NCBI GenBank assembly: GCA_003165595.1
Contig: PLWQ01000004.1
Coordinates: forward strand, 8,178-72,177
Reading direction: 5' to 3'
DNA length: 64,000 nucleotides
Source of the DNA: Fibrobacterota bacterium
GTDB lineage: Bacteria; Fibrobacterota; Chitinivibrionia; Chitinivibrionales; FEN-1185
A model generated the notes under the pieces. That model was given only the letters and a program-made list of their open reading frames with translations. It did no database searches and was not told where the DNA came from. The position numbers and the translations under genes were made by a program. This document shows positions 7,752 through 21,680 of this stretch, in pieces; positions within the stretch are counted from its first letter, which is position 1; every line of letters begins with the position of its first letter.

Positions 7752-7952
7752 ATGGCACTTGACGAAAGCAAATACGAAACGATGAGGTTCATGCGGTGCA
7801 AGCAATGCGGGAATGTGTATGCGTCGGGCTTCGACGACACTCCCGAATGTCCGGAGTGCGCCTCGCACCAGTCGATTATTTACAGGCCCGACGGCGCCAA
7901 GGAGGATAATAGCGGGGACGAAAAAGACGAGTCGAATACGCCGCGCCCGTAG
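7752..7952 (+). CDS. Small zinc-ribbon protein
   Basis: This 66-residue protein carries one rubredoxin-like zinc ribbon: CKQCG early and CPECA about 20 residues later, followed by an acidic tail (KEDNSGDEKDE). The start is ATG 7752, ten bases after AAGGAG; a longer in-frame extension upstream lacks a binding site and overlaps the ftsY trailer. No specific function is recognised. Similar mini ribbons are common near housekeeping genes and are thought to be structural or nucleic-acid-binding. Confidence 0.72.
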   Translation: MALDESKYETMRFMRCKQCGNVYASGFDDTPECPECASHQSIIYRPDGAKEDNSGDEKDESNTPRP

Positions 7953-7975
7953 CCGTGCGCAGTTCACACCCGGCG

Positions 7976-8137
7976 CTATTCCTCTTCGTACATCTCCGTT
8001 ACCTTCTTCTCAACAAGACGCACCGTGTCCACGATCTTCTTTTCCATGCCGATCAGGCTCACGCTCGCCATCACCAAGAAAATGAGCAGGCAGGCCGACA
8101 GGCAGCCGACAACAAAGACTTCCATGAGTACTTCCAT
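7976..8137 (-). CDS. Possible 53-residue single-pass membrane protein
   Basis: A short minus-strand frame reads MEVLMEVFVVGC, then a hydrophobic stretch (residues 7-30, rich in V, L, I and A). A charged amphipathic tail (EKKIVDTVRLVEKKVTEMYEEE) follows, ending at TAG 7976. Hydrophobic segment followed by a heptad-like charged helix is a sensible protein pattern, unlike the overlapping frames. GAGGAA sits immediately before the first ATG, so the second ATG (8125) is a possible start. It is convergent with the zinc-ribbon gene. No family is recognised. Confidence 0.42.
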   Translation of the reverse strand: MEVLMEVFVVGCLSACLLIFLVMASVSLIGMEKKIVDTVRLVEKKVTEMYEEE

Positions 8138-8251
8138 TTCCTCGGGCTGTTTTTGAAATTTCCTTTGGCATCTTGAGTGTACCGTAAGGGGGGAAATTCT
8201 GCAAGGCCCGGTTGGGGAAAATGTCCAATAAATAAATTGAATTGGCTTATG

Positions 8252-8701
8252 CTATTTAGCTGTGTTTTGGCCCAAATACGGTGAGAAACCGGTAATCTCT
8301 GATTTTCTTTCGACCGCATTTTCCATGTCCTTCAATATGCCAGATTGTGTCTGGCGTTTTGATCCTTTCGCCAATTCGCCAGATCCGATCTGGCGAATTT
8401 CAGGACTTCGTGAAGAATAGGTCAAATAGAAAGTCCTGAAATAACGCAAATTTGTTGTGGAAAACCCTCGGCCATACTTCTGGCTAAGCTTTTCAGATAA
8501 TTCTTCAATCACCTTTTCGCCGTATCCTGCGCGGTTCTTGCCGCCCTGAATCTCCTGAACGATTTCACGTCCGATAAGCCAGTAAGCAATAACCATATTA
8601 CTATTCACAGACCGAAGGACATTCTTTCTCGCTTGTTCGAGAATAGTTGCGACTCGTTTGAAAAGCGAGTCTGCCTTCTTGGCGACATTCTTCATATTCA
8701 T
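8252..8701 (-). pseudogene. Truncated DUF1016 (YhcG-like) nuclease gene, N-terminal domain only
   Basis: The 149-residue product matches the N-terminal winged-helix part of DUF1016/YhcG proteins (AYWLIGREIVQEIQGGKNRAGYG, LSQKYGRGFSTTNLRYFRTFY). Full members are about 340 residues with a C-terminal PD-(D/E)XK nuclease, which is missing here. The frame ends at LGQNTAK where family members continue with LGW-T/S-HY. The start ATG 8701 has AAGGA six bases upstream. Two palindromes are embedded in the 3' part. A remnant is more likely than a functional gene, but a stand-alone DNA-binding domain cannot be excluded. Confidence 0.72.
8339..8399. repeat. Two REP-like palindromes inside the DUF1016 remnant
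   Basis: Two inverted repeats share the same half-site. At 8339-8355 GCCAGA and TCTGGC flank a 5-base loop. At 8373-8399 AATTCGCCAGATC and its exact reverse complement (13-base arms) surround a single base. In the protein they encode the SGELA/SGILKD-like segment. This resembles insertion of short palindromic elements into a coding region without breaking the frame. Confidence 0.8.
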
Positions 8702-8843
8702 TTCAATCCTTCAAATAGCTGGTATGAATTCATGCAGTGGGTAACTATGAAAAATAAACGCCTGCCCGTTCAATTCACAGCTTATTCCAGCCAGTACTAA
8801 ATGGCGGCGGCCTATTCACCAATGGTGCAAATTCATGCTCGCA

Positions 8844-9118
8844 CAACGTTCCAGGCATGCCGAAGTTGCTGCATCGCCAACATGATACCGCCAGCGAAGC
8901 GCGGACGTTGACGGAGGCGTTAAACGGGCCATTTGCCGAAGGCCGAGGGCGGTTGCCGCCCGATGCTTGCTTTGTTTGTTGCAGGCTGGAAATTTAAACA
9001 CCACCATAGTTTAATGTCTTTCTGCGGCGGCTCCGGAGTCTTCGACGTCCCGATTCATTTCGGGATTTGTACGTCAGCCTTTTTTGTCTTTCGGCCCGTT
9101 TCTTTTCTGGCGGCGTAT
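8844..9118 (+). repeat. Island repeat copy A
   Basis: This non-coding stretch fills most of the 540-base gap between the DUF1016 remnant and the reverse transcriptase gene. It aligns by eye with copy B (17536-17765, same orientation) and the inverse of copy C (21089-21250). Shared blocks, in order: CAACGTTCC, CCGAAGTTGC, a short hairpin (here GGGCGG-TTG-CCGCCC, 8947-8961), a GTTTGTTGC block, GCGGCGGC, a CGGCCCGTT block and GGCGGCG. Similarity is patchy, so the copies have diverged. The nature of the element (attachment site, MITE or regulatory RNA) is unknown. Confidence 0.65.
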
Positions 9119-9241
9119 GTCTTTAATTGATTTATGATTTCTAAGGGGTGCCTTCTTGTTTATTCTGGTTTTATGTCTGGCCGCGCCCCTTTTCCGCCCG
9201 AATACATGACGTGCGCGGGCGATGCTATTTAAAATTATTTC

Positions 9242-10795
9242 TTAGGTTTTGCTTCTATTAAAAACATCAAATGTATTAGCTAAATTCTGTGATTGATTTT
9301 CAGAAGGATTTACAAATAATGGTATTTTTGTATCTGTAAAAATATCTTGTCTTTCTGTTAAAATGGTTCTCAAAAACGGGTCACCATCTGCATTGAGTTT
9401 ATTGATCGATTCAGTCATTCCAAGCTGAAGATGTTTTGAAAGAAAGACCATCCAGATCAATTCAAAATTAGAATTTTTATCTGCTGCAAAAGCCATTTCA
9501 GCCTTAATCAAATCAGTAAGTATCAACTTTAAATTATGTTCTTCGTCATATTCTTTGTAAATTGCTGCTATTATTGCTATAACAAGACAAATGGTCTTTT
9601 CTGATTCACGTTTGAGCAGCATAAGTAAGCTAAAGACCTTCAACAATTGCTTTTTACGTGATTCGGGTCTATGGGAAAATTGAATTTTGAGTTCATGTTT
9701 TCGATTGAACAGCTCACTTAGAAACTTTTCCAATAAACTTGTTCCTGGAAAATGCCTATGAATATCAAGAGCTTTCAATAAAGTATGTTCAAACTTAGAA
9801 AACGGAACAGTATTGACCTTCCGCAAGGATAACGGATAATATTCCCGGTCATGTTCGCGATAAAGTCCTTCGGGTAAGTTGTGAACCTTCGTCTTATGTT
9901 CATTAATAAGAAGATTAAAAGCAGATAGCTCGTCGGCAAGACATTTGGATATTTTCTTGGCTTGTCCTTCGTTGTCGCAAAGGATTCGGTAGTCATCTTT
10001 AAAACGTGTTGCTAAAAAATGGATTCCGAGATATTTCAATTTAATGGATATGTTTCTGTCAATACGAGCAAGCACAATTTCAGCGATCAAATCACTTAAG
10101 GCAGAGCCTACTGGTATCCCATTGGTTCGTTTATCGTTTGCAGATTGAATCAACTTGTCGATTTTGCAGCCTGTCAATAAGATGTCTTTGTCATTTAACG
10201 CTTCTTCTCGACCATGCAAAGCCCAACCTATACTATGCGTGTAAATAGAATTATAAAAATTTGTTATGTCTGTACGTATGAGAAATCTGAAATTATGCGC
10301 TTCAGCAACAAGATCTTTTTCTGCCATTTCAATCCACTCATAAATCATTCTGCCTGCGCGAAGTTTACTAAGATTACCGTTTGATTTGGAATCCAATGGA
10401 AGTGGAAAGCTATAAGAGTAAATTGCAAGGTCTTTATGGAATAAATGAGCGACGATCGCGTCCCAATCCTGAAGAATCCAGTAAACAATATCGTGGTAAT
10501 TATGAGGATGCTGAATGGCGAATATTCTTGAAGTCAAATGCGACTTTGGATACGAAATAGAAACCAGATGTCGGCGAGGTAATTTCTTTAAATCCTTATG
10601 AAATGGCTCAATATTCAACCCGAAAGAACCAATTTTGAAACATGGCGGAAGGACATAATGTTCGGGAAAATAACCTTCGTTTAAAAGCCAATCGGCAATT
10701 TTATCTTTAGAGATGCCAGTTAAGAGTCTTTTGGAATTATGAAAATGCGATTGTGGCAAAGGCAGAAAATCGTTATTATCTAAAATTGCTGCCAT
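9242..10795 (-). CDS. Reverse transcriptase (defence-associated/unknown-group type)
   Basis: This 517-residue protein is an RNA-directed DNA polymerase. Motif A is RTDITNFYNSI (catalytic D176), motif B is GIPVGSALSD (about 227-235), and motif C is RFKDDYRIL (FKDD at 265-268, replacing the usual YxDD). INEHKT follows as the motif D/E region. About 170 residues lie N-terminal and 220 C-terminal to the core, with no recognised intron maturase, HNH or DGR features, so an Abi/UG-type (DRT-like) RT is the best guess. Its ATG lies 5 bases after the hsdR stop, making it the last gene of the type I R-M operon. The gene is AT-rich compared with the housekeeping flank. The specific UG class cannot be assigned by eye. 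Confidence 0.87.
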   Translation of the reverse strand: MAAILDNNDFLPLPQSHFHNSKRLLTGISKDKIADWLLNEGYFPEHYVLPPCFKIGSFGLNIEPFHKDLKKLPRRHLVSISYPKSHLTSRIFAIQHPHNYHDIVYWILQDWDAIVAHLFHKDLAIYSYSFPLPLDSKSNGNLSKLRAGRMIYEWIEMAEKDLVAEAHNFRFLIRTDITNFYNSIYTHSIGWALHGREEALNDKDILLTGCKIDKLIQSANDKRTNGIPVGSALSDLIAEIVLARIDRNISIKLKYLGIHFLATRFKDDYRILCDNEGQAKKISKCLADELSAFNLLINEHKTKVHNLPEGLYREHDREYYPLSLRKVNTVPFSKFEHTLLKALDIHRHFPGTSLLEKFLSELFNRKHELKIQFSHRPESRKKQLLKVFSLLMLLKRESEKTICLVIAIIAAIYKEYDEEHNLKLILTDLIKAEMAFAADKNSNFELIWMVFLSKHLQLGMTESINKLNADGDPFLRTILTERQDIFTDTKIPLFVNPSENQSQNLANTFDVFNRSKT

Positions 10796-10800
10796 GAGGA

Positions 10801-13107
10801 CTACGCCGCTTTCTCATACAAATATTTCTGAAAAGCAATAAATGTCTGCCGAATCTTGTCTGTTCCGCCAAGTGCCTCTGCCGCATCGCTTATTTCGTGA
10901 TACTTAAGCTTGAGCAGATCGGGCAGTTTTTCTTGGTCGAGCTCCTCAACACCGGTTTCAATATATTTCGACAATACGAATTCCAGAAATTCCTTTTGTT
11001 TCGCATCCAGGCCGTTGAAAATGCGCGTTTCTGCCAGTGTCACCCGTTGTTCTCGTGTTATCGGCTTAACGGCAAACGAGACGTATTCCAGGACATCGAA
11101 CAGGTCGCTTTTTTCGGCGTTAATTAGCCGCTGAAGTGTCGAGAGTTCATCTTTGCCGAACCCTGCATCTGCTATCTTTTCCAAAAAGGTTTTCCTGGTC
11201 GCCGGAACAGACCATATTTTCCGCAGTTCATCTTCATTTTTAAAAAAGGCAGGCAGTGCACCGTAAAGGCTTTTCAGGAATTCCTCAACGGAAATTGGCT
11301 TGCCGTCAGGGCTCCAGAACGAAGTTGCGATCATGTGCTGGATTTCACGCTCTTTGCCATCCCGCAATTTAATCCTGAGCTTGGCCTTTGGCGGCGGCGG
11401 TTCAGGTGGCGGATTTTCCGGGCCGGGTCCTTTGGGTGGTTTGGGTTTTTTTGGTTCCAGTTCTACCGGCTCGCCGTCCCATTCGGGGTCGGAAAAATGG
11501 TGGTACGCATCAACGAAGTCGTAGATAGTAAAATATTCTTTCCCGTCAAAAAGGCGAGTGCCGCGCCCGATTATCTGCTTGAATTCGATCATCGAATTTA
11601 TGGGGCGCATCAGAACGATATTGCGGATATTGCGAGCGTCAACACCTGTGGAAAGCTTCTGTGAAGTGGTCAGAACAGTAGGTATGGTCTTTTCATTGTC
11701 CTGAAATTCCCGGAGGTATTGCTCGCCGATACCTGCGTCATTTGCCGTGACACGCACGCAATAATTCGGGTCTTTACTTTCTTTAAATTGGTTGATCAAA
11801 TCCCTAACGACAGCGGCATGAGCCTGAGTTGCACAAAAAACAATGGACTTTTCCTTCTGATTGGCTTCGTCCAGGAAGATATTGACTCGTTTGGATTCTC
11901 GTTCCTTGATCTCAATGATTTTGTTAAAATCCGGTTCCTCATATAGCCTGTTTTCTTCGACTTCTCCTTCGATAACCTGGTCGTCCGGAGTGAAAATGTA
12001 ATCGTCAAGCGTTGTCTTTATTCGTTTGACCTTAAACGGCGTAAGAAAACCGTCATTGATACCCTCTTTAAGAGAATAGACATACACCGGTTCGCCGAAA
12101 TATTTGTATGTGTCAATATTTTCCACGCGCTTGGGTGTTGCGGTCAATCCTAATTGCACGGCAGGAGCGAAATATTCAAGAATGCCGCGCCAATTACTTT
12201 CATCATTTGCGCCGCCTCTATGGCATTCGTCGACAACAATAAAATCAAAATAGTCGGCAGGGTATTCTCCAAAATAGGGAACCGGGTTTCCGGTCATATC
12301 CTTACCACTCATGAAAGTCTGAAAAATGGTAAAGAAGATACTACCGTTGGTCGGAACATTTCCGCGTCTTCGAATTTCATCGGGCTTGATTCGCACCAAA
12401 GCATCTTCGGGGAAAGCTGAGAATGCGTTGAATGCCTGATCCGCAAGGATATTCCTGTCCGCTAAAAACAGAATGCGCGGGCGTCGACTGCCATCGCGTT
12501 TCAGGTTCCAGCGCGTATAAAAGAGCTTCCATGCAATCTGAAAAGCAATAAAGGTTTTGCCGGTTCCGGTAGCCAGCGTTAAAAGGATTCGATTTTTCTC
12601 TTCGGCCATGGCTTTAAGTGCATTATTGACTGCGATTTCCTGATAATAACGGGCGCTTTTTGTGCCACCGACATCTTCAAAGGGAACTGAATCGAACTTG
12701 TCTTTCCACTCGTATTGCTTTGCAAAGGTTTTTTTCCAGAGTTCGGCGGGCGTTGGGAAGGAACGTATCGTTTTCTCTGTGCCGGATTTCATTGAAATTT
12801 CATAAATCGCTTTGCCATTTGAGGCATAGGTGAAATCAATGTCCAGTTTCGTTGCATAGGTTTTAGCTTGGGCTACTCCTTCGCCGACTTCCTGTCCGTC
12901 GCTTTTTGCCTCGATAACGCCGATCTTAATGTTTTTGTAAACAAGAACGTAATCGGCTATCATCGGTTTAGCCCGGCCACCGCCGACCTGGATCTTTCCG
13001 GCGGTTATGTGGTGTTCACGAAGGACTTTTGATCCTTCTACAACACCCCAGCCGCTGTCCTTGAGGGCCGGGTCAATAAGTTCTGCTCGGGTTTCTGATT
13101 CGTTCAT
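10801..13107 (-). CDS. hsdR: Type I restriction endonuclease subunit R
   Basis: HsdR is the DNA translocase and nuclease of type I restriction enzymes. The 768-residue protein begins with the PD-(D/E)XK nuclease (D52 in ADYVL, then VIEAK at 65-68). A superfamily II helicase follows, with Walker A LATGTGKT (178-185) and VVDECHRGG (DECH 293-296). Motif VI-like QIIGRGTRL is present, with an EcoEI-type C-terminal region. A proline-rich linker (GPGPENPPPEPPPPK) separates motor and C-terminal domains. It starts 3 bases after a 34-residue mini-ORF and is followed after 5 bases by the reverse transcriptase. Nuclease and motor residues look intact. Confidence 0.95.
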   Translation of the reverse strand: MNESETRAELIDPALKDSGWGVVEGSKVLREHHITAGKIQVGGGRAKPMIADYVLVYKNIKIGVIEAKSDGQEVGEGVAQAKTYATKLDIDFTYASNGKAIYEISMKSGTEKTIRSFPTPAELWKKTFAKQYEWKDKFDSVPFEDVGGTKSARYYQEIAVNNALKAMAEEKNRILLTLATGTGKTFIAFQIAWKLFYTRWNLKRDGSRRPRILFLADRNILADQAFNAFSAFPEDALVRIKPDEIRRRGNVPTNGSIFFTIFQTFMSGKDMTGNPVPYFGEYPADYFDFIVVDECHRGGANDESNWRGILEYFAPAVQLGLTATPKRVENIDTYKYFGEPVYVYSLKEGINDGFLTPFKVKRIKTTLDDYIFTPDDQVIEGEVEENRLYEEPDFNKIIEIKERESKRVNIFLDEANQKEKSIVFCATQAHAAVVRDLINQFKESKDPNYCVRVTANDAGIGEQYLREFQDNEKTIPTVLTTSQKLSTGVDARNIRNIVLMRPINSMIEFKQIIGRGTRLFDGKEYFTIYDFVDAYHHFSDPEWDGEPVELEPKKPKPPKGPGPENPPPEPPPPKAKLRIKLRDGKEREIQHMIATSFWSPDGKPISVEEFLKSLYGALPAFFKNEDELRKIWSVPATRKTFLEKIADAGFGKDELSTLQRLINAEKSDLFDVLEYVSFAVKPITREQRVTLAETRIFNGLDAKQKEFLEFVLSKYIETGVEELDQEKLPDLLKLKYHEISDAAEALGGTDKIRQTFIAFQKYLYEKAA

Positions 13108-13110
13108 TAT

Positions 13111-13215
13111 TTATTCCGCCCAGCTTTTTGCTACTTTCAGCAGTAGGTTCCAAAATGGAACTAACTGAATTTCCGTGAAATTATTATTAGCTGCGAGTGC
13201 CTTTTTGCTTTTCAT
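13111..13215 (-). CDS. Possible 34-residue mini-protein between hsdS and hsdR
   Basis: A complete short frame starts at ATG 13215, five bases after the hsdS stop, and ends with TAA 13111, three bases before the hsdR start. It exactly fills the otherwise empty gap. The product (MKSKKALAANNNFTEIQLV..) has a basic N-terminus and an amphipathic C-terminal helix ending KVAKSWAE. No ribosome binding site is close, so expression would depend on coupling to hsdS. It could also be leader sequence for hsdR. No family is recognised. Confidence 0.35.
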   Translation of the reverse strand: MKSKKALAANNNFTEIQLVPFWNLLLKVAKSWAE

Positions 13216-13220
13216 TTTGT

Positions 13221-14723
13221 TCACGATGCGGTTCCTGTCAAGGCGCCAGAGAAGGCTTTGCGTAGTAGCGCTGTTTTAAGTAAATCAAGATTTGATAGTT
13301 TCTTCTGGTAAATTGATTCAAGATTCTTGGTTTCTGCTGCCAGCCTATTCAGCTTGGAGACGATCTCAACCTGCACTTTAAGAGACGGAAAAGGAAAATT
13401 CTGATTTTCAAAAGTTGCCATATTGATATTATCCCGCGCAGTGCCTTTTCCACATTCTTTGAGAAATGCCTTGAAGGATTGAAGCAGATATTCGACATAC
13501 TCGTTATTTGCTTTCTTCTCGTCAACGATAATACCAATTACACTATCGGGGAAACATGCATCAAAGTCCAAAATCGCAGTCTCTCCAACATTTGCGCCAA
13601 CTATTGCGATACAGACAGTGCCTCTGGGCCATAATTTACTTTGGGCTAACCCCATTTCATTATACGTTTGGGTGTAGGATTTTATCCAATGCGAAGAATT
13701 GCCAACATCGCCAGTTTGAATAAGCGGGTAAGAACCTCCAAGAATCTTTGAGTCACCTCTGGGCCTGTGTCTTGATTTGCCTCTCCCAAATTCAATTGAG
13801 ATGCTAGAAAGGTTTTTAAGGCTCCATTGAGCCCCAGGGTTGGTAAAAAGACTTTTTAGATATGAATTGAATATTTCTCGGGAATTCGCCAGATTCTTCT
13901 CCGCGATTTCTTTCGCGCGGGAGATGCCGGAAAATGCTTCGTCGAGTATGGCGACGATGCGTTTTTGTTCAGGGAGCGGGGGAAGAGGAATTGTTATGCT
14001 TTCAATTTGAGATTTATTGATAGAAGGAAACACTGCACCTGCATTGCCGACAATTTCTGACTCCTGTTTCACTAGAAAATTGAAAAGGTATTCAGGTTCA
14101 ATGCCCTTGCCGGGCCTGATTGCTGCCAAACCACGTCCGATGCATATCTTTTTCGTTGAAAAGTTTACAGGGCCAACAGGAGCTCTAACCGACATTAAAA
14201 TGTCACCAGCAAGTGCTTCTTTTGTTATCTCGGTTGTCCACGTAGTCGGTTCGGAAATGAACCTTTCGCCAAATTCTTTCTTACCTTGGTAGAAAGGTGT
14301 ACCGTTTCCAACATTATTGTAGTACTTTCCTTCGGGTGATTGGCCTGCAATCACAATACACACATCCCCAAGTTTCTTTTGTTCCCACCCCTTTCCCGCT
14401 CCAACCCCTGCATCCTCTTCTCTACGATAAAACTCCTTCCCCACTCTGTCAATATGCTCTCTCAGCTTGTCATTCTTCAACGAATCATAAGCGGAAATAT
14501 CAAAGGTGTACGGCAAGAACGATTCATCAAGCGCGTCGAGCACGTCGGCAATGGTTTTCGTGTTGATATTGCCAAAGAGCGTCAAATCGATATCCGACCC
14601 TTCGCGGTAATTGCCCTTCGCGCGGGAGCCGTAGATGACCGCCTTTTCTATCTCGTGATAGCGCCTGAGAATGGCGTGTATTTTGGCCATAGTAGAATTG
14701 TCAAGTCCAAACAAAGGTTTCAC
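13221..14723 (-). CDS. hsdS: Fusion of MNT-type nucleotidyltransferase with type I specificity subunit HsdS
   Basis: Residues 1-100 form a minimal nucleotidyltransferase, the antitoxin half of HEPN/MNT pairs. YGSRAKGNYREGSDIDL (G32-S33, D44, D46) is the GSx10DxD motif and D75 is a plausible third carboxylate. Residues 113-500 form a two-TRD HsdS: WEQKKLGDV.., PLPPLPEQKRIVAILDEAF as the first conserved helix, WSLKNLSSI.. as the second TRD, and a terminal LLKTALLRKAFSGALTG. The GTG start at 14723 overlaps the HI0074-like stop (GTGA), so partner and fusion are translationally coupled. MNT and HsdS are normally separate proteins. The fusion may tether the TA module to the R-M complex; that is inference. 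Confidence 0.9.
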   Translation of the reverse strand: MKPLFGLDNSTMAKIHAILRRYHEIEKAVIYGSRAKGNYREGSDIDLTLFGNINTKTIADVLDALDESFLPYTFDISAYDSLKNDKLREHIDRVGKEFYRREEDAGVGAGKGWEQKKLGDVCIVIAGQSPEGKYYNNVGNGTPFYQGKKEFGERFISEPTTWTTEITKEALAGDILMSVRAPVGPVNFSTKKICIGRGLAAIRPGKGIEPEYLFNFLVKQESEIVGNAGAVFPSINKSQIESITIPLPPLPEQKRIVAILDEAFSGISRAKEIAEKNLANSREIFNSYLKSLFTNPGAQWSLKNLSSISIEFGRGKSRHRPRGDSKILGGSYPLIQTGDVGNSSHWIKSYTQTYNEMGLAQSKLWPRGTVCIAIVGANVGETAILDFDACFPDSVIGIIVDEKKANNEYVEYLLQSFKAFLKECGKGTARDNINMATFENQNFPFPSLKVQVEIVSKLNRLAAETKNLESIYQKKLSNLDLLKTALLRKAFSGALTGTAS

Positions 14724-15142
14724 TCGTGTTCCTGCTCGTGAAGAGATGTAAACTTCTCCGTAAGGCTTTTGAATGCCGGAAAGAATTTATCGGTAATTGA
14801 ATCCAACACCTCATCTGCAAGGGCTTCATCATACGTGTGCGAGGTAAGGTTTCGCGCTTTTATCATTTCCATCCAGATTTCCCCATCGGAAACAAGCCCG
14901 GATTTGAATGCCTGTCGGGTAGTGTCTTTGGAACCGATGAGCGTGGTATAGCCCTGTTCCGCGAGATAGTCTTTCATCAGGTTCCACGCCAATTCATGCG
15001 TATATTCAAAGCCTTGTATGAGCCCCTGTTTTTCAAGTTTGCTTAACGCGCGCTCCTTTGCGAGCGAGACAGCGCTCTCCAGTTCCCGGAACGCCTGCAT
15101 ATAATTATTAAACCGCTGTATCCAACGCACATCAGTAGCCAT
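14720..15142 (-). CDS. HI0074-family HEPN protein (nucleotidyltransferase substrate-binding / HepT-like)
   Basis: This 140-residue all-helical protein matches the HI0074 family, partner of MNT nucleotidyltransferases. FEYTHELAWNLMKDYL is the family's core helix. ARNLTSHTYD holds R97-N98 and H102-x-Y104, the RNxxxHxY form of the HEPN RX4H nuclease motif. In HepT/MntA systems the HEPN protein is an RNase toxin that the nucleotidyltransferase silences by AMPylating the tyrosine; here that tyrosine is present. It overlaps the MNT-HsdS fusion by four bases and lies 14 bases after hsdM. Confidence 0.9.
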   Translation of the reverse strand: MATDVRWIQRFNNYMQAFRELESAVSLAKERALSKLEKQGLIQGFEYTHELAWNLMKDYLAEQGYTTLIGSKDTTRQAFKSGLVSDGEIWMEMIKARNLTSHTYDEALADEVLDSITDKFFPAFKSLTEKFTSLHEQEHE

Positions 15143-15156
15143 ATTAAAATGCCTCC

Positions 15157-16617
15157 TTATTTTTTTACTAGCTCCTGGATTGTCTTTAGAATCTCCACAC
15201 TCTCCCTGTCCAATTCTTTCATCTCATCAATAATCTCCTTCGGGTCACGGAGCTCGGTTTCATCTTTTCTGTTCGGATTCTTCACCGACAAATCCCACGC
15301 CCCGCTATCCACGTCAGATATTTTCACACACCACGAATTGGGCGAATCCGCCTTCGTCTTTTGTAGTCTCACAAATTCCGAGAGGTCATTTTCATTCAGC
15401 GGATTGGTTTTGCCCAAATTTCTGTCAAGATTAAGTTGGTAATACCAAACCTTCTTTGTCGGTTTTCCTTTTTCAAAGAAAAGAACAACGGTTTTTACTC
15501 CTGCACCGGTGAAAACGCCTCCGGGCAGGTCAAGTACGGTATGAAGGTCGCAGCTTTCTAGAAGCATTTTCCGCAAAGAGACCGACGCATTGTCGGTATT
15601 TGACAGAAAGGTATTTTTAATGACTATGCCAGCGCGACCACCTGCCCTTAGGATCTTTATATAGTGCTGAAGAAATAGAAAGGCGGTTTCGCCTGTTTTT
15701 ATCGGAAAGTTTTGCTGAACTTCGGCCCGCTCTTTACCGCCGAATGGGGGATTTGTCAGAACTATATCGTAGCGGTCTTTTTCCTGAATATCCGCAAGGT
15801 TTTCTGAAAGCGTATTGGTGTGAATGATATTCGGAGCTTCAACACCATGCAAAATCATATTCATGGTACCAATGATGTACGCTAAGGACTTTTTTTCTTT
15901 CCCGTAGAATGTTCTTTTCTGTAAGGTCTCAATATCTTTGGTCGTTAGGTTCTTACTGGCTTTGAGGTATTCGAAGCCTTCACATAAGAACCCTTCCGAA
16001 CCACCGGCACCGTCATAAATAGTCTTCCCAATTTCAGGTGCAACAACCTTTATAATGGTTTTTATAAGAGGGCGCGGAGTGTAATATTCGCCGCCATTAC
16101 GACCAGCATTACCCATATTCTGAATTTTAGCTTCGTACAGGTGGGACATCTCATGCTTTTCCGCATGAGAACGGAAGCGGAGTTCGTCTATCAGGTTAAT
16201 GACTTCCCGAAGATTGTAACCGCTCTGGATTTTGTTCTTAAGCTCGCTGAAAATTTCACCGATTTTGTAGATGATCGTGTCGGGGCTTTCTGCATCGGTT
16301 TTGAACTTTTTCAAATAGGGGAAAAGCTTATGGTCAACAAAATCCTTGAGATCGTCGCCGGTTGATGCTTTATGATGGTCAAGCTTGCCGTCTTTTCCCT
16401 TGGGCATTGCCCATTTTTCCCAACGATATTGAGCGTCGATGATTTCCGTGTATGGTTTTCCGGAAAGTTCGGAAGCGGTTTTCTTGTCTTTTTCGAAATC
16501 GTCAAGATACTTGAGAAAAAGAATCCATGATGTTTGCTCAACATAGTCAAGCTCACTGCTGCAACCTGCGTCTTTGTGGAGAATGTCGTCGATGTTTTTG
16601 AAGGTTTGTTCGAACAT
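15157..16617 (-). CDS. hsdM: Type I restriction-modification methyltransferase subunit M
   Basis: HsdM supplies N6-adenine methylation for the type I complex. The 486-residue protein has the N-terminal helical HsdM_N domain (1-125) and the N6 methylase domain. NPPF sits at 289-292 in LTNPPFGGKE and TMNMILHG at 251-258. SAM motif I reads YDGAGGSEGFL (201-211), whereas most HsdM proteins have DP-x-x-G-S/T-G-G-F. Pro is lost and Glu replaces Gly, so reduced activity is conceivable. It follows the HEPN-like gene after 5 bases and precedes the HI0074-like gene by 14 bases. Confidence 0.94.
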   Translation of the reverse strand: MFEQTFKNIDDILHKDAGCSSELDYVEQTSWILFLKYLDDFEKDKKTASELSGKPYTEIIDAQYRWEKWAMPKGKDGKLDHHKASTGDDLKDFVDHKLFPYLKKFKTDAESPDTIIYKIGEIFSELKNKIQSGYNLREVINLIDELRFRSHAEKHEMSHLYEAKIQNMGNAGRNGGEYYTPRPLIKTIIKVVAPEIGKTIYDGAGGSEGFLCEGFEYLKASKNLTTKDIETLQKRTFYGKEKKSLAYIIGTMNMILHGVEAPNIIHTNTLSENLADIQEKDRYDIVLTNPPFGGKERAEVQQNFPIKTGETAFLFLQHYIKILRAGGRAGIVIKNTFLSNTDNASVSLRKMLLESCDLHTVLDLPGGVFTGAGVKTVVLFFEKGKPTKKVWYYQLNLDRNLGKTNPLNENDLSEFVRLQKTKADSPNSWCVKISDVDSGAWDLSVKNPNRKDETELRDPKEIIDEMKELDRESVEILKTIQELVKK

Positions 16618-16622
16618 GCAAA

Positions 16623-17414
16623 TTATTCCTTGTGATTCTTAAAGATGTTTGGTCGTGTCCGTCTGATAAGTGAGTCAATGAACTGAAAATAGGGAATTGC
16701 GTTTGCCTCAGCGTGTTTAACTTGCGCAATGCCCTGAATCATCGGTAACGATGCAATTCTCGTAATACTGGTTTCTTCAAATTGCAAACCTTGTTCTGTA
16801 ACCTTCGCGCCGGTTAGGGGTATGCTAATTTCGCTATGAGTTTTTGATGAATCCGCGTGGCTATAAGCATTTCGTAAACATTCACGAATCCTATTTAGTT
16901 CTTTTTTGTCTTCTTTTGTAATGATACCTTGAGTGCAGGCGGCATTGATGTTTTTGTCCATATTGTTTGAATTGTACGCTGCTGTAGATTGAGCGGTCGC
17001 ATTTGTGAGTTTTTCAATAAGATCCTTCCCTTCGGAGCTAAAATTGGCATTTTTGTAAATCAGAGCGATTTTAAGATATTTTTCAATCATGTGGTTGGTT
17101 AAGGTTATCGCAGCCTGACATAAACCGAAGATAATACAAATACAAATTTCATTCCGAAGTGGATTTACTTCTGTATCGCCTTCATAGGAATTCTTGAATA
17201 TTTCGCGGATTACAGGATAATTTGAGAAGATATTCTTCTGCCTGGACTGAATCAGCTCATTAACTTCTGCTAAATATTTTGTTTTTGTATCTTCATCCAT
17301 ATTTTCTTGTTTTTCCTTCGCCCGCTTAGGACGAGCGGGCTTGTCTTCGGGCGCGGCTTTTATTAAAATAGCCTTTGCATTTAAGGGCTTTAACTTCTTT
17401 CTTAATTCCGGCAC
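16623..17414 (-). CDS. HEPN-like protein heading the R-M operon
   Basis: No named family is recognised for this 263-residue, mostly helical protein. The region 80-190 is hydrophobic-helical and ends in RECLRNAYSHAD, where R181-N182...H186 fits the RX4H nuclease motif of HEPN domains. The GTG start at 17414 is uncertain: the first 38 residues are Lys/Pro/Ala-rich. ATG at 17300 (MDEDTKTKYLAEV) is an alternative with AAGGA about 12 bases upstream. It is the first gene of the operon, 5 bases ahead of hsdM. A role as a toxin or sensor is inferred from motif and position only. Confidence 0.62.
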   Translation of the reverse strand: MPELRKKLKPLNAKAILIKAAPEDKPARPKRAKEKQENMDEDTKTKYLAEVNELIQSRQKNIFSNYPVIREIFKNSYEGDTEVNPLRNEICICIIFGLCQAAITLTNHMIEKYLKIALIYKNANFSSEGKDLIEKLTNATAQSTAAYNSNNMDKNINAACTQGIITKEDKKELNRIRECLRNAYSHADSSKTHSEISIPLTGAKVTEQGLQFEETSITRIASLPMIQGIAQVKHAEANAIPYFQFIDSLIRRTRPNIFKNHKE

Positions 17415-17535
17415 CCCCCTGAATTTCTTTGTCTTTTTCCTGCGCCGCCTTTTTCTGTCATTAAACGGGCTGGTCTGGATTTACTCTATTTTCTAGCCGC
17501 CGCCTATCAAGTTCATTGTTTAAATTTATTGACTG

Positions 17536-17765
17536 CAACGTTCCACGCACCGCCGAAGTTGCCGCATTGGCGACATGACGCCGACACGAAGTTGACGGCG
17601 ACGGAGCCATCAAAGCGGCAATTTGGGGCGGCTTTGCGCCCGGCATGCGAGTGTTGTTTGCTGTATGTAAAGCACCTGCCGTCGTTTAATCTGTTTTCGG
17701 CGGCGGTCTTCTGCCTTTTTCTTCTTTGCCTTTTAGCCCCCGTTCTTCTTCTTTTTGGCGGCGGC
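17536..17765 (+). repeat. Island repeat copy B
   Basis: This copy fills the 380-base gap between the R-M operon and the helicase operon. It is in the same orientation as copy A and inverted relative to copy C. Exact or near-exact words shared with copy C include GTTGTTTGC, TATGTAAAGCAC, CGGCGGCGG and AGCCCCCGTTC. A hairpin GGGCG-GCTTTG-CGCCC (17626-17641) sits where copies A and C also have hairpins of different sequence. Just upstream, 17462-17470 (TAAACGGGC) matches a block in copy A (8931-8939) but in a different order. No protein-like frame is convincing here. Confidence 0.7.
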
Positions 17766-17794
17766 ATTCCATTATTTTCTATTCTTAACGGACT

Positions 17795-20170
17795 CTATTC
17801 TTGAGAAATGTAGCCCGCTCGAACCGCGTTACCTAATACAGGGCTTAATTGGGCATCTTTAGAAATCATGATAATTAGTTGATAGCGTGCTCGTGTGAAT
17901 GAAAGGTACATCTCCCGGTATGCTTGTTGTTCAAGGGTTGCAGAAAGTCCACTATGAGGTCCTACATTGGGTGGTAAGATGCCCTTTTCGAGACCTACGC
18001 ATATTACAGCATCATATTCTTGGCCACCAACAGTTTCAGGCCGGGCAATGACAATTATCGGATGGTTTCTTTCAATGGTTTCACCCCTTTTCAGCTGTAT
18101 ATGAACATTGAGTTCGCGGTTACCTTTCATAAAGAACTCCTCAATCTCATTCCAGTATTTGTCCGCATGAACAATAATTGCGATTTGTCTGGTGTTGATT
18201 CTGCGCAATTCCCTTATGACACGAAGGAGCGCCTTTGGCAAGTTGGCTGTTTCCCCCTGATTAATTACCTTTGGCTTAGAAGCCAAAGGATGGTCAGATG
18301 ACGCAAGAGAAAGCGTTCCAGAAGTGAAATCAGGAAACTCAGTCGTGAAAAGATCTGTAGTTCGCTGAATAACGAAAAATGCTAAAGATAGGATTTCTTT
18401 CGTACTACGGTGGACAGTATTAAGCATTTGATTGGAAATGTTCTCAATGCCGAGTCGACCGAATCCTGCAGAAATGGCACCACGAAGCTCTTGGGCCTCA
18501 TCAAGAGCAAGCGCAATAGGAAGGTAAGATTTATCGCCCTTCGTAAGTAGATGAAAAAGTAATCGTTCATTTTCATTAAAGAGCTGCGCTTCGTCAACTA
18601 ATAAGAAATCATATCCACTTCGTTTTCGTTTCATCTCCCAAAGAGGGGTTCGAAAATGCCCAAGAACAGATAATGCAATGTCGTCTGAATCAAGAACCTC
18701 GTATTCTTCAAACATCTGTCGGTTGTATTCAACAAAAACATCGAATACTACGCTACGCTCATTCTGAGTTAGATGCCCATGTAGGCGACTGAGGGGTTTC
18801 TCTGATTCAACGTATCGCTTTCGATTATTAACCAAATCTCTACCTTTAATTGTAACCCCTATTTCTGAGCATATTAAATCCACAAAATGTTCAATTAAAT
18901 CTGGTTTATCGATTACTCGTGGAATTGTTGTCGATTTCTTCTCTTGGTCAACTTCTTCCTTGTCCCATTGATCTATTCTTAACCTCTTCTCGTCTAGCAC
19001 CTTCTTAAGACAATTAGATGCAACTTCCCTTTGGAACAGTTTGGTTTGGTATGCATCCTTATCTATAACTGACGTAGGTGAAGTACCCAATTCTTCTTGA
19101 CAATAATCATATAGCGTCGAAACTCTCAAATGAACTTCAGAGTTTGCTTCAAAATATTTTGCTGCGTCAAGAGTCCTAAAGCGCCCAATCACCGTATTCA
19201 CCATCTCGTTATTGTGCGAAATATAGAGAATCCTCCTCTGAGTCCTCTCTGCATCTGCCTTCGATAGGAGCCTCATTGTTAGGAGTTGCATAATGAGTGT
19301 TTTGCCTGATCCTGCTGCTCCCATAATTCGGAGTGGCTGCTTAAAGATTATATCAGATTCGGCAATCGCCCGCTGTTCTTGAGTTAAGGGAGAGGCGTCA
19401 GCCAGCCAGTGTTTAAAGTCCCAATCCGTTGTCATATAATCATTGGGTGATTGGGCATGAATCTCCTCAAGAGTTGGCAAAACAGAAATCAGGCTCTCTT
19501 CAGATTCTCTTGTTGCGGATTCGGGAGCAAATCTGTCTCGTATGCCCGTAAATAATTTGGTGTCAAGCGCTGGCCTTCTTAGTGATTGACTGAGAAGGTC
19601 ATGTGAATATTGAATCAACGTGGGCAGAATATCTCCCACAGAGGTTACAAGATCATGCAATCCATCCTTTGTGCCATTCCATGGGCCAACACATAGGATT
19701 GAACGTGACTCAAATCCTGCCTCTGACTTGAATAACCCCTCCTTATAACCAATACTGAATTGACGTGCTTTTTCCCCACGTCCAGCAAGGCAGCAGCTAA
19801 TATTGTCCTTTAGGGACCTGTGAATAATTGATTCGGGGAGCAAAAGGCCTTGGAGCCTTTGACTGATAACGAAGATGCACCTCTCAAAAACTTCTTGAGA
19901 TATTTCTTTCTGGGAAAACAGGCCTATCTGTGGGTCCAAGGAAATATGACCCCATTCTTCTATCCCAGTGGAGGATAAGTAGTCAGTGTTCCAAATTGCG
20001 AGGATCTGATTCTTATATGATGCAATGCGCAAGGCTCCTATTGCTAAAATAGAATCCTTGAGATTCGATACCTGCAACAATTTGGGCAATTCAGAAAATA
20101 AGGAATTGTGATACGACGGAGTACGAAGAAGCCATTCAGCAGTCTTCTGTGTAATGCTCAAGTATTTCAT
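17795..20170 (-). CDS. UvrD/Rep-like superfamily I helicase with unique N-terminal domain
   Basis: The 791-residue protein has about 250 N-terminal residues of unknown fold, then a UvrD-type motor. Q-motif LTQEQRAIA lies at 262-270, Walker A GAAGSGKT at 284-291 and Walker B LLVDEAQL at 523-530. A late ETVGGQEYDAVICVG and MYLSFTRARYQL form motifs V and VI. It lacks RecB-type nuclease motifs. It is the second gene of a two-gene cassette, starting two bases after its partner's stop. This resembles phage-defence pairs that join a SF1 helicase to an unknown effector, but no named system is recognised. Confidence 0.85.
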   Translation of the reverse strand: MKYLSITQKTAEWLLRTPSYHNSLFSELPKLLQVSNLKDSILAIGALRIASYKNQILAIWNTDYLSSTGIEEWGHISLDPQIGLFSQKEISQEVFERCIFVISQRLQGLLLPESIIHRSLKDNISCCLAGRGEKARQFSIGYKEGLFKSEAGFESRSILCVGPWNGTKDGLHDLVTSVGDILPTLIQYSHDLLSQSLRRPALDTKLFTGIRDRFAPESATRESEESLISVLPTLEEIHAQSPNDYMTTDWDFKHWLADASPLTQEQRAIAESDIIFKQPLRIMGAAGSGKTLIMQLLTMRLLSKADAERTQRRILYISHNNEMVNTVIGRFRTLDAAKYFEANSEVHLRVSTLYDYCQEELGTSPTSVIDKDAYQTKLFQREVASNCLKKVLDEKRLRIDQWDKEEVDQEKKSTTIPRVIDKPDLIEHFVDLICSEIGVTIKGRDLVNNRKRYVESEKPLSRLHGHLTQNERSVVFDVFVEYNRQMFEEYEVLDSDDIALSVLGHFRTPLWEMKRKRSGYDFLLVDEAQLFNENERLLFHLLTKGDKSYLPIALALDEAQELRGAISAGFGRLGIENISNQMLNTVHRSTKEILSLAFFVIQRTTDLFTTEFPDFTSGTLSLASSDHPLASKPKVINQGETANLPKALLRVIRELRRINTRQIAIIVHADKYWNEIEEFFMKGNRELNVHIQLKRGETIERNHPIIVIARPETVGGQEYDAVICVGLEKGILPPNVGPHSGLSATLEQQAYREMYLSFTRARYQLIIMISKDAQLSPVLGNAVRAGYISQE

Positions 20171-20172
20171 AA

Positions 20173-21048
20173 TTATTTTCCTCCCGTAATATTGGAAATG
20201 AATCTGGATATAGTATCGTCAGAAAAGTCTGGTGAACCGATTCGTGCATAAAGACAAATAAATCTTGTTAGCAGGTCATGCATGAAATGCGATTCAATTA
20301 CAAGAACTTTTAAAGGCCTATTCTTCGCAAATTCCCTTGCTGTTAGGAAATGAATTGAAAGCGAGTCTATCTGAGCTGCCCAATCTGTTATGTGAATATC
20401 CTGAGCAGAGTTGAACACCTCAATTGGAGCAGTTAAAGGATATCTAAATAGCACGAGCGAAGGCTCCTTGATAACGGACCACTCTACAGGATTGTTATCT
20501 GGAGGCAGGAAATGTATATCATTGGCAAAGCTGTTACGAACAATCCTTTGGAGGATTCTATCAATATTCTTACCAAAAAATACGGATAGACTTTGCATAT
20601 CCGCACTTGAAGATGTTCCAGACATCATGCTAGATAAATGGTTAAGACCTGATCGAATCCGTACCGTCAGATTACTGTTTTTTATGGTTTCCAGCTTTGA
20701 TATTTCATCTGCCAATCTGGCCACATCAGGCGCTGTTGGAAACTCGTTAGAAGGGACCAGTTCCTTTCCTTGAATAAAATTTACTGATTCTAATAAACCA
20801 AGCATGGTGCTTCGCAGTTCAGAGTAGAAACAGCGCGTTAATAGCCAATTACGTATAGGGATTATTGGCAAATAGGTAAGTGATTCAACTTTATCATTTG
20901 CAAGATCACACGCAGGGGTTATTATAAGTCCTGGAGCAGTATCGCATTTAAGCAAGCCATAGGTTGGCAAATTAGACCATATATCGCCATTTCTGTGAAA
21001 TAGAGATGGACTTGTGTCGTAAAAGCGGGTTGGACCTGCAAGCGCCAT
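20173..21048 (-). CDS. Uncharacterised partner of the UvrD-like helicase
   Basis: This 291-residue protein has no recognised family. The most distinctive part is near the N-terminus: GDIWSNLPTYGLL, then LIITPACDLANDK (C47, D48), predicted beta-rich and followed by a helical body. It has no signal peptide or membrane segment. It is the first gene of the two-gene operon and ends two bases before the helicase start, so the two proteins very likely function together. The TPxCDLA block resembles a conserved motif and could be a metal or catalytic site. Confidence 0.7.
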   Translation of the reverse strand: MALAGPTRFYDTSPSLFHRNGDIWSNLPTYGLLKCDTAPGLIITPACDLANDKVESLTYLPIIPIRNWLLTRCFYSELRSTMLGLLESVNFIQGKELVPSNEFPTAPDVARLADEISKLETIKNSNLTVRIRSGLNHLSSMMSGTSSSADMQSLSVFFGKNIDRILQRIVRNSFANDIHFLPPDNNPVEWSVIKEPSLVLFRYPLTAPIEVFNSAQDIHITDWAAQIDSLSIHFLTAREFAKNRPLKVLVIESHFMHDLLTRFICLYARIGSPDFSDDTISRFISNITGGK

Positions 21049-21088
21049 AGTTACCCCTATTGTGCATTTTATTCTGTATTGATTGCTT

Positions 21089-21250
21089 CGTCGCCGCCTC
21101 TTTGTTTTGAACGGGGGCTGTCTTTATCTTTAATATGCTTTGTGTCTTCCCGCCGCCGACTATAGTTTCATTGTGCTTTACATATTGCAAACAACTACCC
21201 GCATGATGTACTCTCAAAAACTCCCCAAAGCATATATCCTTATATGCTTT
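21089..21250 (-). repeat. Island repeat copy C (inverted)
   Basis: Read on the minus strand, this segment repeats the right half of copy B: a hairpin, GTTGTTTGC, TATGTAAAGCAC, CGGCGGCGG, AGCCCCCGTTC and GGCGGCG in the same order and similar spacing. Its hairpin (21227-21250) has perfect 10-base arms AAAGCATATA/TATATGCTTT around TCCT. Copies B and C form inverted flanks of the helicase cassette. Confidence 0.7.
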
Positions 21251-21290
21251 TCCAGCGTAGGCGGGTTCAAAAAGCATCTACTAGTATATA

Positions 21291-21680
21291 TTAACCCGTT
21301 TTTTCCTCAAATTTCACCACCCGCTCGCCGATCCCCAGCATTTTTACTTTATCGAGGTCGACTTTCCAAAGCCTTCTGTTACTGTAATACTGACCGCCTG
21401 CAATCTTGATTTTGTCCTTAAGGTCTTTTTCATGCCAGCCGATCCTTACGAAAGCGCCGGAGCCCGGTTTGGGTTTGGATTTCCAGGGAACTTCTTCGAC
21501 TATCAGTTCGACCGTTTTGTACCGTTTCCGGCTAGCTGTGTCATAGCGGTAGCGGACGCACACCAGTTTGTCGCCGTAGTAGGACACGAGTTTTTTCGTG
21601 CCGCGGTCGCCTGGTTTAAGTTTGAGTTTGACTTTCACGGAATCCCGTCTGTCGGTCTTCAGGGTATGCTCACAAATCAA
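21291..21680 (-). CDS. Hypothetical protein, 129 residues
   Basis: The product is basic and rich in beta-prone segments (KLKLKPGDRGTKKLVSYYGD, LVCVRYRYDTASRKRYKTVEL). It ends in a glycine/lysine-rich part (AGGQYYSNRRLWKVDLDKVKMLG). The real start may be GTG near 21638 (VKVKLKLKPG). Proteins of this style recur as orphans near mobile or defence genes, but I do not recognise a named family. It ends within the AT-rich island, next to repeat copy C. Confidence 0.55.
   Translation of the reverse strand: MICEHTLKTDRRDSVKVKLKLKPGDRGTKKLVSYYGDKLVCVRYRYDTASRKRYKTVELIVEEVPWKSKPKPGSGAFVRIGWHEKDLKDKIKIAGGQYYSNRRLWKVDLDKVKMLGIGERVVKFEEKTG

Follow-up and report, generated by a model that had tools for sequence, protein, structure and literature searches.

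A UG14 reverse transcriptase gene behind a type I restriction–modification operon of a Fibrobacterota bacterium

A reverse transcriptase (RT) gene that starts directly behind hsdR raises two questions: to which kind of RT its product belongs, and whether the restriction–modification (R-M) genes ahead of it have any part in its function. The gene lies in a 64,000-nucleotide stretch of Fibrobacterota DNA (contig PLWQ01000004.1 of assembly GCA_003165595.1), which is referred to here as the window, and its surroundings are collected in Table 1.

Table 1. Features in and around the hsd–RT gene run, with positions in the window.
Feature	Position	Strand	Evidence and remarks
UG14 RT (class 1 UG/Abi, DRT kin)	9242..10795	(-)	RT_UG14 1.5e-193, RVT_1, predicted fold, tree
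hsdR, EcoAI/FtnUII-family type I restriction subunit	10801..13107	(-)	NCBIfam NF046051 817 bits (cut-off 550); PADLOC REase_I 462 bits
MNT-type nucleotidyltransferase domain (residues 14-103) fused in frame to HsdS (residues 111-496)	13221..14723	(-)	Pfam Polbeta 5.7e-15, Methylase_S 2.7e-42; PADLOC Specificity_I 543 bits
HI0074/HepT-like nucleotidyltransferase-binding (HEPN superfamily) protein, 140 aa	14720..15142	(-)	Pfam NTase_sub_bind 7.9e-46; TIGR01987 101.5 bits (cut-off 55.8)
hsdM, type I methyltransferase	15157..16617	(-)	Pfam N6_Mtase 7.9e-60, HsdM_N; PADLOC MTase_I 530 bits
263-aa protein, first gene of hsd run	16623..17414	(-)	weak DUF4145 (HEPN-family): E 0.0021, 18.5 bits, below cut-off 23.1
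Dispersed ~190-bp repeat, copy downstream of RT	8844..9033	(-)	fold z-score 0.55; further full or partial copies in the genome
Second window copy of ~190-bp repeat, beyond the hsd and RT module	17536..17640	(-), direct orientation	75% identity over 93 bp to 8844-8935

Family, motifs and predicted fold of the RT

The RT open reading frame is intact, running for 517 residues from an ATG to its annotated stop, and the minus-strand junction reads GCGGCG-TAG-TCCTC-ATG, which confirms the spacing of 5 nt between hsdR stop and RT start given in the initial annotation. By alignment, the RTs to which it is related start some 11 residues further in, and the gene may in truth begin at an in-frame TTG (10759); the gap to hsdR would then be about 41 nt, and the operon-like layout is the same with either codon. 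Pfam RVT_1 covers residues 139–305 (E 1.4e-10), the sole RVT_1 match in this genome. The frame is far from chance because it matches an RT family over its full length at 642 bits, the PADLOC profile RT_UG14 (PDLC03751) aligning by its positions 4–492/493 with residues 14–514. The next PADLOC profiles are Drt6 (232 bits), Abi-P2 (203 bits) and Drt4 (190 bits), and AbiK (109 bits), group II maturase (50 bits) and retron (40 bits) profiles score lower still; other genomic UG14 proteins reach 537–710 bits on RT_UG14, a range that includes the window RT. On the NCBIfam models of Drt4, Drt3b, group II maturase and St85 retron RTs the protein stays far below the cut-offs (for the Drt4 equivalog, 158 bits vs a cut-off of 450). 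The tree placement proposed with the initial annotation was carried out with reference RTs named by profile, and in this tree, where UG14 as a whole is not one resolved clade, the window RT groups with six UG14 RTs (support 100/99), apart from Abi-P2 (100/99), AbiK (100/100) and the group II RTs. On its sequence, then, the gene is a UG14 RT and kin of Abi-P2, DRT4 and DRT6: the view that it is of UG type, and outside the retron, DGR and group II intron classes, is upheld, and the view that its group is unknown gives way to assignment to a rare but already classified one.

Ten relatives with 35–61% identity were found in genomes labeled as Planctomycetota, Patescibacteria, Aminicenantes, Spirochaetae, Enterobacteriaceae, Acidobacteria and Cyanobacteria, and further ones turned up by profile in sampled genomes. 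UG14 is rare, with 0–2 matches per sampled group of ~245–345 genomes (the centre genome not counted) and no other UG14 gene in 167 genomes from the phylum to which the window belongs. Thirty pattern matches in viral contigs comprised no UG14 relative, the Enterobacter mori copy had no match in E. coli, and the plasmid and phage matches examined belong to other class 1 groups, mainly Abi-P2 and also AbiK and Drt6. The UG14 gene of Laspinema palackyanum (L011:7751-9271) carries an in-frame TAG and is possibly a decaying copy; that of its close relative from Phormidium (L008) is intact. The literature searched yielded no experimental study of UG14, which is one of the UG groups without a paper there.

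Motifs A (RTDITNFY, with D176), B (NGIPVG) and C (RFKDDYRIL, with D267/D268) are all in place, as originally read, and align across 15 UG14 RTs, the window RT included. D176, D267 and D268 are invariant in this alignment, as are R264, K266, Y269 and R270, and motif C reads RFKDDYR in 13 of the 15 and RYKDDYR in the other two. The FKDD box, at first taken for an anomaly, is by this alignment the UG14 consensus and ordinary for the family.

An AlphaFold model of the window RT was built on ten UG14 sequences (pLDDT 79.6, with low-confidence stretches at residues 1–9, 83–88 and 203–228) and compared with known structures. Among the 50 VIA-align matches listed are DRT6 (9wy8, Z 23.6, 425 residues, 3.4 Å), DRT4 (9vdo, Z 23.3), Abi-P2 (7r08, Z 23.2), UG15 (9l9s, Z 21.4) and AbiK (Z 17.5), all of which run from about residue 20–30 to residue 500 of the model; group II, retron and DRT2/DRT9 RTs are at Z 12.2 or less, and their matches mostly end near residue 316. 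Foldseek agrees with the class 1 matches. From about residue 332 the model is mainly helical, and this C-terminal part is predicted to be the alphaRep-type helical domain that replaces the thumb in class 1 UG/Abi enzymes. The long N- and C-terminal extensions, said before to match neither group II introns nor DGRs, thus fall within the class 1 UG/Abi fold, matched at Z 21–24 over ~425 residues with the helical C-terminal domain included.

The reading that we consider probable is that of a class 1 UG/Abi (DRT-type) single-protein untemplated polymerase, active in abortive infection and forming an interchangeable add-on to the R-M operon. The family, the integrity of the motifs, the predicted fold, the operon-like position, the non-conservation of the gene pair and the lack of a conserved intergenic space are results of the present analysis. 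Untemplated synthesis, protein priming, oligomers, the antiphage effect and co-expression are proposed by analogy with characterized relatives that are ~20% identical to the window RT. AbiK primes on Tyr44, has no thumb and forms a hexamer (PMC9508834); class 1 enzymes combine an alphaRep domain with template-independent synthesis, DRT3b priming on Y666 (PMC13174585); and DRT4 and DRT6 are single-gene systems that make random ssDNA (PMC13213688). Following these examples, the UG14 RT would act alone, like Abi-P2, DRT6 and DRT4, with a right-hand RT core that bears an alphaRep helical repeat instead of a thumb and assembles into trimers or hexamers, and would make ssDNA without a nucleic-acid template, primed on one of its own tyrosines. 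DNA building up in the course of phage infection would harm phage replication or the cell, resulting in abortive infection. The R-M genes ahead of the RT would supply co-expression and a first line of defense, and the RT would act alongside them or as a back-up, without R-M as its template. In 14 of the 15 UG14 RTs a tyrosine occupies position 42, in the loop that follows helices one and two, and the exception has an adjacent Tyr43; as a guess from the alignment, we put forward Tyr42 (Tyr43 in that one relative) as candidate priming site. In Enterobacteriaceae, UG14 is followed 0–3 nt downstream by a conserved gene of ~195 codons (L006:11525-12112 and L007:11516-12109, 42% identity, with a weak HEPN match in one), which is absent from the window, and some UG14 RTs may need the product of this gene as a partner. 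The authors of the DRT3 study point out that many class 1 UG RTs are uncharacterized and that their DNA products are unknown (PMC13174585).

The hsd operon and the genes beside other UG14 RTs

As can be seen from Table 1, the gene run is a stack of defense- or dormancy-type modules, in the order DUF4145-like (a weak match), hsdM, HepT-like, MNT-HsdS, hsdR and RT, in which hsdR is the same-strand gene immediately upstream of the RT, and a neighbor rather than a demonstrated partner. Built into the type I specificity subunit at 13221-15142 (-) is a pair that resembles HEPN-MNT toxin–antitoxins; among 145 plasmid records with a match to HsdS, the 20 best all leave the MNT part unaligned. The run is situated in an A+T-rich island (7900-21500, about 37–50% G+C vs about 60% in ftsY/ftsH), and a stretch from the same genus (G031 C45) matches the genes before this island, to about 7.9 kb, and not the island itself. 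Upstream of the hsd genes, 17795-21048 (-) encodes a UvrD-like helicase of 791 aa, weakly similar to GajB, and a 291-aa protein to which no Pfam family matches, possibly another two-gene defense module. At 8252-8701 (-) a 149-aa DUF1016 N-terminal fragment is encoded, likely a truncated YhcG-type nuclease gene, and a full-length member of the DUF1016/YhcG family is found elsewhere in the genome (L068:2414-3544).

The initial annotation had the R-M complex as possible template or partner of the RT, and conservation of the linkage was assessed from both sides. Fourteen independent UG14 loci (L008 and L011 taken as one) were searched with the hsd-operon proteins of the window as queries, using tblastn and phmmer, L037 being covered by phmmer and outside the tblastn searches; several loci end at contig ends, and neighbor counts are therefore lower bounds. 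No type I hsd gene was detected in any of the 14 by either method, the queries giving two weak sub-domain matches (E 4e-4 and 3e-8), both inside restriction enzymes of other types. Restriction or methyltransferase genes of other kinds adjoin UG14 in five of the 14: Mrr in L003, a helicase and Eco57I in L005, an Eco57I-type methyltransferase in L032, and Eco57I-type enzymes in L033 (two) and L034 (one). A UvrD-type helicase gene lies just upstream of UG14 in two more (L009 and L010), and at half of the loci the DNA examined contains no R-M and no helicase gene. The proposed comparison of neighbors thus has a divided outcome, in that type I genes are missing throughout but R-M or restriction genes of other types do recur, which looks like a shared defense-island life with optional stacking of operons. 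From the other side, no annotated RT was found near hsdR relatives (46–61% identity) on eight plasmids. Their gene runs instead hold PDDEXK nuclease, PIN/Phd, HicA, ATP-binding protein, AAA ATPase, SIR2 or Abi-family genes, and the RT therefore occupies what is a variable accessory slot. Neither count lends support to the R-M complex as template or partner, and we regard it as unlikely to be the template or an obligate partner of the RT.

What the position means is the one point on which our preferred reading differs from a plainer one, which fits the same biochemistry and to which we give somewhat less than an even chance: that the RT is a defense-island neighbor, recombined in behind hsdR and at most co-transcribed with it, and has no functional relation to it. 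G+C content rises from 35.5% in the RT to 46.7% in hsdR and about 60% in ftsY and ftsH as host genes, and the higher A+T content of the RT is consistent with its separate arrival. RT relatives and hsd relatives do not co-occur, and the settings of UG14 are varied, comprising a P4-like satellite (L006), the vicinity of proBA (L007), phage-type genes (L031) and housekeeping genes (L002 and L008). Against mere vicinity stands a recurring geometry, with UG14 on the same strand as a restriction or helicase gene and no more than about 105 nt behind it: 5 nt in the window, overlaps of 1 nt in L034 (with a type IIG-like restriction gene) and L009, about 62 nt behind an Eco57I-type enzyme in L033 and about 105 nt in L010. 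This recurrence hints at, and could reflect, selected co-expression; it is no demonstration of a complex between UG14 and restriction enzymes. Anecdotally, a DNA methyltransferase or Eco57I gene comes after Abi-P2 on Pediococcus and Lactiplantibacillus plasmids and AbiK stands beside hsdS, so class 1 RTs in general may be placed by restriction or methylation genes.

A closer bond is assumed if the RT is taken for an effector that guards the R-M system, silenced by the Hsd complex and set free once anti-restriction by a phage disables that complex, as PrrC is with PrrI. The tight spacing to hsdR, the HepT-like/MNT pair in the operon with its MNT fused to HsdS, suggestive of immunity–suicide coupling of the kind proposed in PMC3506569, and the positions in L034 and L033 fit such a role, but the PrrC–hsd linkage is described as conserved across bacteria (PMC3506569) and that of UG14 with hsd is not (0 of 14 loci, 0 of 8 hsdR relatives), and half of the UG14 loci show neither R-M nor helicase gene, for which reasons we hold it to be improbable. 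Slightly less probable still is a broader version, in which UG14, encoded in several lineages right behind a restriction or helicase gene, would be a restriction-coupled suicide polymerase, PrrC-like with DNA synthesis as the effector, its untemplated synthesis being freed once the first-line enzyme gives way or a phage inhibitor blocks it. The locus supplies an intact UG14 gene together with relatives recurrently found behind restriction or helicase genes, through which the stacking of abortive-infection polymerases on R-M operons becomes directly testable.

Intergenic DNA and the dispersed repeat

An Rfam scan of the locus returned no match and no intron. Across UG14 no intergenic gap is kept on either side of the gene (upstream, overlaps of 1 nt at L034 and L009; downstream, no gap at L006 and 3 nt at L007), which argues against a fixed site for an intergenic ncRNA; flanking DNA conserved among UG14 relatives was absent except for short stretches, mostly between near kin. 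An ncRNA within the coding region or encoded elsewhere is possible. With respect to the established RNA-templated classes, the window RT scores 39.6 bits on the St85 retron model (cut-off 235) and has 5 nt upstream and no Rfam match at its locus, and it scores 49.9 bits on the group II intron model TIGR04416 (cut-off 300). That the RT is not of DGR type also stands: no TR/VR-like pair occurs in 8.2–22.5 kb, where the longest gapless direct repeat is 35 nt at 80%. The one longer repeat, a gapped one (93 nt at 75%), lies in non-coding DNA.

This gapped repeat joins two copies of the ~190-bp element in Table 1, of which there are more in the genome (G000 C2:63634-63757, C2:66085-66323 and C32:50975-51157). 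The element is non-coding and elsewhere adjoins defense-type genes (Mrr, YhcG/DUF1016, AAA_15/DUF3696); its ends, judged by eye, misfit the RYYYAAC/GTTRRRY of an attC-like integron site, and its single strand folds no better than shuffles. The copy behind the RT is no RT-specific ncRNA, and a family-specific ncRNA template in 8702-9241 was rejected on the grounds that ~190 nt of this stretch are dispersed repeat and that no flank is conserved. An RT templated by a nearby ncRNA in the manner of retrons or DRT2/9, for which the 540 nt of non-coding DNA behind the gene (RNA fold z-score -2.0) might speak, is therefore very unlikely and the least probable of the readings, the repeat also lying beside other genes with its own fold unsupported, Rfam and flank comparison coming out as described, neither side of the gene keeping a gap across the family, and both fold and profile placing the RT in class 1.

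Comparison with known systems

PrrC, the anticodon nuclease of the PrrI type I R-M locus, shares with the window RT that it is an accessory effector gene in an hsd locus; for PrrC the linkage is conserved and the interaction has been shown (PMC3506569), whereas the window linkage is not conserved and an interaction would be hypothetical. AbiK of pSRQ800 has the class 1 fold (Z 17.5) and likewise adjoins hsdS on its plasmid, but it belongs to a clade of its own, and the window RT reaches 109 bits on its profile. DRT6 (UG12) and DRT4 (UG15) are single-protein RTs with a helical C-terminal domain (Z 23.6 and 23.3), and the DRT4 9vdo alignment reveals an N-terminal YFP...PPCF signature common to the window RT; both are about 20% identical to it, and the Drt4 cut-off of 450 is missed. 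Abi-P2 resembles the window RT from end to end in predicted fold (Z 23.2), provides the best PDB sequence match (7r08, 2.1e-28) and has RYRDDYRI in motif C where the window RT has RFKDDYRI, yet it forms a separate clade (100/99) and its profile scores 203 bits vs 642 for UG14. Closest are the UG14 RTs themselves, with a full-length match, [FY]KDD motifs, the same length and 35–61% identity to ten relatives, among which, in the loci examined, the window copy alone stands behind a type I hsd operon.
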